Positions 5,925-8,202 of a stretch of DNA of 64,000 bases are shown here, in pieces. Origin of the DNA: Pyrinomonadaceae bacterium (GTDB lineage Bacteria > Acidobacteriota > Blastocatellia > Pyrinomonadales > Pyrinomonadaceae). Every line of letters begins with the position of its first letter. Position 1 is the first letter of the stretch. Where the stretch lies: positions 744,001-808,000 of the forward strand of contig JANQRU010000001.1 in assembly GCA_028284415.1 (NCBI GenBank), read 5' to 3'. A program made the translations under genes and the position numbers. The notes beneath the pieces were generated by a model that made no database searches, was not told where the DNA came from, and worked only from the letters and a program-made list of their open reading frames with translations.

Positions 5925-7799
5925 ATGTCTTATCAAGTAATTGCAAGAAAATGGCGACCTCAAATATTTGAGGAAGTTATCGGTCAAGAAGCTGTTACGC
6001 GAACTTTGCGTAATGCAATCGAGCATGACCGTTTGCATCACGCATATATTTTTTCGGGTGCAAGAGGCGTGGGGAAAACAACTACAGCAAGACTTTTAGC
6101 TAAAGCTCTTAATTGTCATCAAACAGACACACCTAATGCGACTCCTTGTGATACAAGCTCAGATAATGCTTGTGTTTCCTGCAAAGAAATTGCTGAGAGT
6201 CGTTCGCTTGATGTTTTAGAATTTGATGCAGCATCAAATACTCAAGTCGATAAAATCCGTGAAATAATCATTGAGAATATACAGATTTCCGCCGCACGTG
6301 ACCGCTTCAAAGTTTTTATCATTGATGAGGTGCACATGTTATCAAAATCCTCATTTAATGCACTTTTGAAAACTCTTGAAGAACCACCTGAAAATGTCGT
6401 CTTTATAATGGCTACGACAGAGCTTCATAAAGTTCCTGATACGATCCTTTCACGTGTTCAAGAATTTGAATTTAGAACTATTCCCCTACCGAAGATACTT
6501 AAAAGATTAAAAACTATTGCTCAAGCTGAGCATATAGATATTACTGATGAAGGATTAAAAGAAGTAGCACGTTCAGGCGAAGGTTCAATGCGTGATGCCC
6601 AAAGTAATTTTGATCAAGTCATAAGCTTTTCGGGCGAGAAGATTGATGTAGAAGACGTAATAAATGCTCTTGGAATAGCAAGTGCTGAGAATTTAACCAA
6701 AACAATCCAAGCTATCGCAGATAAAAAACCTCAAGAAGCATTGCAAGTTGTTGATGATTTGATTTCAAGAGGTCAAGATTTGCGTCATTTTTGTACTGAT
6801 CTTCTAACTTTTATCCGTGATCTATTGGTTTATAAAATGGCTGGTGAGGCGGAACATTTACTTGATACGGCAATTTTGAGTTTTGATGATCTGAAAAATC
6901 ATTCTGCACCTTTCCTAGAAGCTGATCTTATACGATTTTTTAACTCACTTGCGGAAACTGAAAGTAAACTTAGAGATGCTACCGAACCGAGATACTTACT
7001 TGAAATTGGTTTATTAAAACTAATTGAAATGAGAAGAGTTCAACCAATCGAACAGATTCTTGAGCGTCTTTCAACTTTAGAACAATCCTTAAATGCCAAC
7101 GAACAAACTCCTGCTTCTAAATTAGAACCTCAGACTCAATCGAGTAAGACGGAAGAAAAAAAAACTTTAGTTTCTGACAATCCTCCTGCGGACACCCCTT
7201 TTCCAGTAAAAGACAGGAATATACCTTTAGAAAATACTGAAAGCCCTGCACCGGAGAAAGCAGAGTCCAAGCATTTTGAAAATGGTAAAACTTCTAATGT
7301 TAATGATCTAGAGGAAAATGGGCATAAAGAAAAACCTATTGAAAAAAAGGTTAAGAAAAAACCTTCTATCATTGATATTGATGCGATGCCGGTAAAGCTT
7401 GAGCCGATTGATTCAGAAGAGCTTGAGCATATTGATGATAAATGGCTGGATAATGCGTTTGAGCGTGTTTTATTGAAAGAGGGTGATAATCTAAAAATCA
7501 TCCAAAATGCCGAATCAATCATACAAGAACTTTTTGCTAACAATGAATCTAACTTTGCTGCCTCAAATACCAATTCCAAACCACAAACAAACGGTACAGC
7601 AACTACTCCAGCCAAAGAAAACAGAGCCTTAAAGATAGTTTCTGAAATGCAAGAAGTTGAGGAAATAGACGAAACTATTCCTGAATTACCCGAAAATCCA
7701 ACCCAAGAAGACCTCTGGAATTTTGCCCAAAACCACCCAAGAGTTAAAAAAGCACTGCGTGTATTCAGAGGAAAACTTGTAAACGTTAAAAAAGAATAA
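5925..7799 (+). CDS. dnaX: DNA polymerase III subunit tau (and probably gamma)
   Basis: 624 residues. AAA+ clamp-loader ATPase: Walker A GARGVGKT (45-52), the zinc module with C64, C75, C83 and C86, Walker B IIDEVHML (132-139) and sensor region TTELHKVPDTILSR. Domain III ends near residue 370, followed by a charged, low-complexity linker (about 385-480) and a C-terminal tau region. Within the linker, codons 473-475 form an A AAA AAG heptamer with a -1 frame stop two codons later, so a truncated gamma form of 476 residues is plausible. The long minus-strand reading frame inside (7136-7615) is a shadow. Confidence 0.96.
   Translation: MSYQVIARKWRPQIFEEVIGQEAVTRTLRNAIEHDRLHHAYIFSGARGVGKTTTARLLAKALNCHQTDTPNATPCDTSSDNACVSCKEIAESRSLDVLEFDAASNTQVDKIREIIIENIQISAARDRFKVFIIDEVHMLSKSSFNALLKTLEEPPENVVFIMATTELHKVPDTILSRVQEFEFRTIPLPKILKRLKTIAQAEHIDITDEGLKEVARSGEGSMRDAQSNFDQVISFSGEKIDVEDVINALGIASAENLTKTIQAIADKKPQEALQVVDDLISRGQDLRHFCTDLLTFIRDLLVYKMAGEAEHLLDTAILSFDDLKNHSAPFLEADLIRFFNSLAETESKLRDATEPRYLLEIGLLKLIEMRRVQPIEQILERLSTLEQSLNANEQTPASKLEPQTQSSKTEEKKTLVSDNPPADTPFPVKDRNIPLENTESPAPEKAESKHFENGKTSNVNDLEENGHKEKPIEKKVKKKPSIIDIDAMPVKLEPIDSEELEHIDDKWLDNAFERVLLKEGDNLKIIQNAESIIQELFANNESNFAASNTNSKPQTNGTATTPAKENRALKIVSEMQEVEEIDETIPELPENPTQEDLWNFAQNHPRVKKALRVFRGKLVNVKKE
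7343..7354 (+). promoter_or_regulatory. candidate programmed -1 frameshift site in dnaX
   Basis: The heptamer AAAAAAG at 7343-7349 sits in the frame A AAA AAG, the same as the E. coli dnaX slip site. After a -1 shift the next codons are GGT TAA (stop 7352-7354). AAGGTT and AACCTT on either side of AAGAAAA can form a small hairpin overlapping the site. Confidence 0.5.
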
Positions 7800-7870
7800 T
7801 TTTTTGCAAAAAAACTAATATTTTTTGGGTATTTTGGGGAACTTAATTATTTACCTCTGCGTATAAATAA

Positions 7871-8101
7871 GTGGAGGTTAAAAAATCAGAAATGCGTGAA
7901 CCTATTATTGCAGGAATATTGAGTTTATTAATTCCCGGTTTGGGACAAATTTACAATGGAAGAATTGTTATCGGCTTAGTTTGGCTGATTTTGACAGGCT
8001 TTTCTTGGATCGGCTCAGCAGGTTTGCTCGGTTGGGTTGTCCATTTGATCGCAGCTTGGTGTGCTTACAGCTATGCAAAAGATAATCCAATAAGAGAATA
8101 A
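7871..8101 (+). CDS. small TM2-like membrane protein
   Basis: 76 residues, or 69 if the second ATG (7892, MREPIIAG) is used; the first start is a GTG. Two membrane segments: PIIAGILSLLIPGLGQIYNGR (with the SLLIPGLGQIYNG signature of TM2/DUF5683-like proteins) and VWLILTGFSWIGSAGLLGWVVHLIAAWCAYSYA. Function unknown. It lies between dnaX and psd and is closed by its own terminator. Confidence 0.82.
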   Translation: MEVKKSEMREPIIAGILSLLIPGLGQIYNGRIVIGLVWLILTGFSWIGSAGLLGWVVHLIAAWCAYSYAKDNPIRE

Positions 8102-8126
8102 ATTCTCCTCTTTCACATCCTCCTTT

Positions 8127-8156
8127 GCCCGATGTTTGTGACCATCGGGCTTTTTT
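8127..8156 (+). terminator. intrinsic terminator
   Basis: GCCCGATG (8127-8134) pairs perfectly with CATCGGGC (8143-8150), followed by six T. Confidence 0.9.
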
Positions 8157-8202
8157 CGTTTTTCAAAACCCTAAAATTAGCGTAAAATGATGTTTAGTTT
8201 TT

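Follow-up and report, generated by a model that had tools for sequence, protein, structure and literature searches.

The dnaX gene at this locus raises the question of whether a shorter gamma protein is produced beside full-length tau and, if so, from which site and by which mechanism. Tau has an established role in the replisome, and in Escherichia coli gamma is obtained from the same gene by -1 programmed ribosomal frameshifting on A AAA AAG, accompanied by a Shine-Dalgarno sequence and a stem-loop. An earlier, sequence-only reading of this DNA had proposed an E. coli-like site in the linker between the clamp-loader core and the tail of tau. The general idea of a linker slip site giving gamma beside tau was supported by the present analysis, whereas the choice of site was not, the conserved element being a run of nine A (A9) upstream of it. 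In the window, that is, the whole stretch of 64,000 nucleotides that was analysed, the gene is laid out as follows.

5925 to 7799, + strand: dnaX coding sequence, stop codon included (tau, 624 amino acids), with Pfam and NCBIfam dnaX matches.
6645 to 7067, + strand: clamp-loader domain III, residues 241-381 (Pfam DNA_pol3_gamma3 match to 241-381).
7343 to 7354, + strand: A AAA AAG heptamer with GGT TAA in the -1 frame; present, not conserved, without stimulators and judged incidental.
7365 to 7796, + strand: tau-specific tail, conserved again from approximately residue 481.

Domain III marks the end of the conserved core common to gamma and tau. The letters of the proposed site were correctly described: codons 473-475 are GAA AAA AAG, so that the heptamer occupies 7343-7349 and has the same phase as in E. 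coli. Read in the -1 frame, the sequence is AAA AAA GGT TAA, with a stop at 7352-7354 that would end a product of 476 amino acids beside the confirmed 624 of tau. The A9 run, which that reading had missed, lies in the same linker about two thirds along dnaX, 30 residues past domain III and 187 nt upstream of the A AAA AAG at 7343. Its context is GAA AAA AAA ACT (codons 411-414), and nowhere else in the 64-kb window does A or T occur nine or more times in succession. An Rfam scan of 6500-8200 returned nothing relevant. Four features can be placed around the run.

7155 to 7170, + strand: conserved island G-A9-CTTTAG, codons 411-416, encoding E-K-K-T-L-V; clade consensus G-A9-CTY-T(A/G)(A/G).
7156 to 7164, + strand: A9 run, the proposed RNA polymerase slippage site; A9 in 56 of 60 clade genes.
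7168 to 7170, + strand: TAG stop for an 8-A or 11-A transcript, predicting gamma of 414 or 415 amino acids; at the same place in 50 of 56 A9 genes.
7175 to 7177, + strand: TGA stop for a 10-A transcript or a -1 ribosomal shift, predicting gamma of 417 amino acids with the end EKKNFSF.

Conservation of the run was determined with dnaX genes collected from 30 relatives and subsequently from 119 Pyrinomonadaceae genomes. A run of at least nine A was present at the equivalent place in all 60 alignable genes of one clade, representing ten genera (56 with A9, three with A10 and one with A11), and two further clade genes, from G071 and G090, are fragmentary and also carry A9, giving 62 of 62 readable genes. 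In the other 39 family members the longest A run of the linker did not exceed seven, so no run of the A9 type was present, and ten dnaX genes from other families of the class contained no A run of seven or more. A maximum likelihood tree of domains I-III from 109 genes grouped the 60 A9 genes as one clade (SH-aLRT 97), requiring one change of state. The A9 run was thus apparently gained once, in a single clade of the Pyrinomonadaceae and independently of Thermus. Since the genomes are related, counts within the clade are not independent; the chance of GAA AAA AAA was calculated as 10^-4.2 with one genome per genus, against 10^-53 uncorrected.

Conservation around the run is narrow. Mean residue agreement was 0.28 in the linker before the run and 0.26 after it, compared with 0.98 for EKKTL, and strong conservation at the DNA level was confined to two places, from about -1 to +6 relative to the run and at +12/+13, where the A10-frame stop falls. 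The exact motif GAAAAAAAAACTYTRA yielded 46 matches in the 119 genomes, 45 of which were located in dnaX by comparison of coordinates; the match in G049 falls in another gene. The near invariance of EKKTL would agree with a run kept only for its protein motif, or by common descent, without any slippage. However, the synonymous positions are invariant as well: the Lys-Lys pair at the run was always AAA AAA, whereas AAA AAA accounted for 26 of the 64 Lys-Lys pairs found elsewhere in these genes. None of the 60 clade genes encoded EKKTL with AAG, GAG or ACC, and the dnaX genes of the clade span 37-62% GC.

The two remaining reading frames are closed shortly after the run. In the frame entered by an A8 or A11 transcript, 50 of 56 A9 genes had a stop as the second codon past the run, compared with a background of 2.6%; 24.6 of 56 were expected from the residues and the codon usage of each gene (z 7.6, uncorrected for relatedness). 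In the frame of an A10 transcript, equivalent to a -1 shift, all 56 A9 genes had a stop 2-13 codons after the run, mostly at four. Both stops were close (within two codons in the A8 frame and eight in the A10 frame) in 48 of 56 A9 genes, compared with 2.7% in the background. Stops so far above background in both other frames also speak against conservation of the protein motif alone, as do two genes, those of G003 and G077, that are split at the run, and retention of A9 for EKKTL or by descent is considered highly improbable.

The A9 run at 7156-7164 is therefore very probably a selected slippage site, at which RNA polymerase would slip to give gamma beside tau. What was observed is the run, the degree to which it is conserved, a nearby stop in each of the other two frames and one transition between states on the tree; from these we infer slippage itself, its mainly transcriptional nature and any gamma:tau ratio. 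Under the proposed mechanism, RNA polymerase would slip on A9 to yield dnaX mRNAs with 8, 9, 10, 11 or more A. Those with 9 or 12 A would encode tau of 624-625 amino acids, and the remainder would meet a stop within one to four codons, in either of the other frames, to produce gamma of 414-417 amino acids that retains clamp-loader domains I-III and lacks the tau tail. By run length, the predicted products are tau of 624 amino acids for A9, and gamma of 414 (...EKKL) for A8, 417 (...EKKNFSF) for A10 and 415 amino acids (...EKKKL) for A11. The gamma of 476 amino acids expected from the heptamer is not what the conserved element predicts. An aside in the sequence-only reading had named transcriptional slippage on an A run, which is the mechanism favoured here, although it was attached to the seven A at 7343 and not to the conserved A9.

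An alternative is that gamma arises at the same run because ribosomes shift by -1 on the A AAA AAA within it, RNA polymerase not being chiefly responsible. This heptamer stands in the required phase, and the -1 stop follows 2-13 codons on in 56 of 56 A9 genes. Ribosomal frameshifting leaves unexplained why nine A are kept when seven would suffice, the +1-frame stop found in 50 of 56 genes, and the genes with A10 and A11. A +1-frame stop is of no use to a -1 ribosomal shift, and its conservation consequently points to insertions and deletions of either sign in the mRNA; it is what two-way slippage on the DNA template would select. No conserved stimulator, whether Shine-Dalgarno sequence or hairpin, accompanies the run: upstream, Shine-Dalgarno-like motifs occurred in only none to two of the 60 clade genes and none was conserved, and downstream, folding of the clade genes revealed no ribosomal stimulator (mean z -0.45). 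In addition, according to PMC5009743, shifting in E. coli occurs far less readily on A_AAA_AAA than on A_AAA_AAG. Ribosomal frameshifting as the main route is accordingly regarded as unlikely, while some -1 shifting on the in-phase A AAA AAA of GAA AAA AAA, besides slippage by RNA polymerase, is possible.

The second alternative is that A AAA AAG at 7343-7349 serves for -1 frameshifting as in E. coli, which would give gamma of 476 amino acids. The heptamer, its phase and an immediate -1 stop are all there. Conservation in relatives had been put forward as the check on this site, and an in-phase A AAA AAG was found in only four of the 60 A9-clade genes when counted within 110 codons after A9. 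The four fall at alignment columns 588, 577, 546 and 479 and, being at different columns, are therefore not homologous. Four occurrences exceed the 0.76 expected from codon shuffling (3 of 300 shuffles were as high), an expectation affected by the dispersal of natural Lys-Lys clusters when codons are shuffled. When the codons of the linker were shuffled, any in-phase A AAA AAG appeared in 10-18% of trials, and in 1.6-3.2% such a heptamer was followed, no more than one codon later, by a stop in the -1 frame. The predicted fold does contain the AAGGUU/AACCUU stem said to overlap the slip site, yet the stability of this region did not exceed that of shuffled sequence (z 0.02 including the 7343 site and 0.37 downstream of it). 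The reported lack of an upstream Shine-Dalgarno stimulator was borne out, the nearest candidate, AGAGGA, starting approximately 33 nt upstream of 7343 and so not at the right distance. This genome carries tRNA-Lys(CUU) at G000:C8 ~104433 in addition to tRNA-Lys(UUU), and hence does not rely on a single tRNA-Lys(UUU). Such an additional tRNA-Lys(CUU) is believed to make slippage on AAG less favourable. The locus shares with E. coli dnaX its purpose, gamma beside tau, and happens to possess the heptamer at 7343; it differs in that Shine-Dalgarno sequence, hairpin and conservation are absent there and the conserved site lies elsewhere. The A7 site is most likely incidental, and production of gamma from it is very unlikely. 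Other slippery heptamers of the linker, for example CCC TTT T at codon 424, were not conserved.

Transcriptional slippage in the dnaX gene of Thermus thermophilus was reportedly described by Larsen et al. in 2000. According to PMC5009743 and PMC1088944, that gene has A9 in a single ORF, with stops in both other frames and slippage by RNA polymerase. The anatomy of the present gene is that of a Thermus-type dnaX, the run, both stops and nucleotide conservation without stimulators all having been found: in each case a sense-strand A9 follows the clamp-loader core of a single-ORF dnaX, both other frames are closed nearby and no stimulators are seen. Two tRNA-Lys species are likewise reported for Thermus and were found here, and PMC5009743 suggests them as a possible reason why Thermus uses RNA polymerase slippage. 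The two genes differ in the position of the run, which lies seven-eighths along the gene in T. thermophilus and about two thirds along it here, and in phylum, this genome belonging to the Acidobacteriota, where slippage is proposed from comparison of sequences.

Run-length variants within the clade resemble a further known arrangement. In G046 and G041 the run is A10, yet the dnaX reading frame continues through it and both alternative frames are closed. Those of G003 (A10) and G077 (A11) are two-ORF dnaX genes, in which the unaltered template encodes gamma, and tau requires a change in run length. Two-ORF dnaX genes with ten A, in which tau needs recoding, were described by Antonov et al. 2013 (PMC3711429) from 12 genera, in a data set with only three Acidobacteria genomes. 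The genes of G003 and G077 are like these in ending the template frame in gamma, and differ from them in that both layouts occur here inside one otherwise A9 clade. They may be real two-ORF layouts of this kind, or homopolymer errors in draft assemblies, from which all the run-length variants of the clade come. Differences in run length between genomes would also be expected of a phase-variable homopolymer, toggling tau by replication slippage to A10 in G003 and A11 in G077. Against this, exactly A9 was retained in 56 of 60 genes, outright loss of tau would probably be very costly, and the A11 of G077, near-identical sisters of which have A9, may be explained by assembly error. Phase variation is thus judged highly improbable, the least likely of the explanations considered.

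The tail of tau also differs between the clade and its relatives. Two non-A9 relatives tested showed a weak tail match, below the curated cut-off, to DUF3646, the DnaX C-terminal family, and no such match was obtained in three A9-clade tails tested. Local profile comparison found only the last 36 or so residues in common between A9-clade and non-A9 tails. It seems that the tail changed on the branch on which A9 was gained.

A wider sample of 80 dnaX loci was drawn from named genomes and is not random. In-frame runs of A8-A10, mostly with both other frames closed nearby, were observed in relatives of Geobacter and Desulfuromonas, in Fibrobacter, Balneolia, Chitinophagaceae, Neomarinimicrobiota and others. 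Among the Geobacter/Desulfuromonas relatives (A9 in L080, L082, L083, L084 and L088; A10 in L087) the run is situated about 42-53 codons before the stop, and both other frames close early in five of the six, the A9 loci. The run has the appearance of a slippage site acquired independently, at a place closer to that in Thermus. Fibrobacter loci L100, L102, L104, L106 and L110 have an in-frame A10 at about codon 397, with the other frames closing within 4-6 codons. Loci L108, L123 and L130 (Balneolia, Chitinophagaceae) and L116 and L131 (Neomarinimicrobiota) carry A9 in frame around codon 388-390, both other frames being closed nearby, and are likely to represent further gains. The presence of A runs in dnaX of several phyla suggests repeated gains. 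It is tentatively put forward, at somewhat less than even confidence, that dnaX genes of different bacterial phyla have acquired poly(A) slippage on many independent occasions, that gamma may be made in this way more often than by ribosomal frameshifting of the E. coli kind, and that the Pyrinomonadaceae gain, on a branch that lost the recognisable DUF3646-like tau domain, may accompany a rebuilt tau.

Slippage that truncates a protein is noted in PMC1088944 to be hard to prove by comparison, because no new coding sequence is added. Here some 60 genomes, together with a well-defined sister group, allowed the case to be made from sequence alone and the gain to be placed on one branch. A limited literature search found no paper on dnaX recoding in Acidobacteria or Pyrinomonadaceae, and what appears to be new is a cleanly placed gain of an already known mechanism. 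As A9, A10, A11 and both layouts (gamma by slippage and tau by slippage) occur in one clade, they form a natural test series, which could be used to examine how the proportion of gamma to tau is set and why bacteria go on making gamma.

Two minor observations were made during the survey. A non-A9 dnaX gene, L195 (G030:C7:23600-25836), ends at 386 amino acids and matches residues 1-317 only, possibly indicating a frameshift or a truncated gene. Locus L230 (G000:C4:146300-153500) is a dense tRNA array, with 24 genes packed into 4.5 kb of a single strand; many of them duplicate tRNAs encoded elsewhere in the genome, and the array perhaps belongs to a phage or other mobile element.
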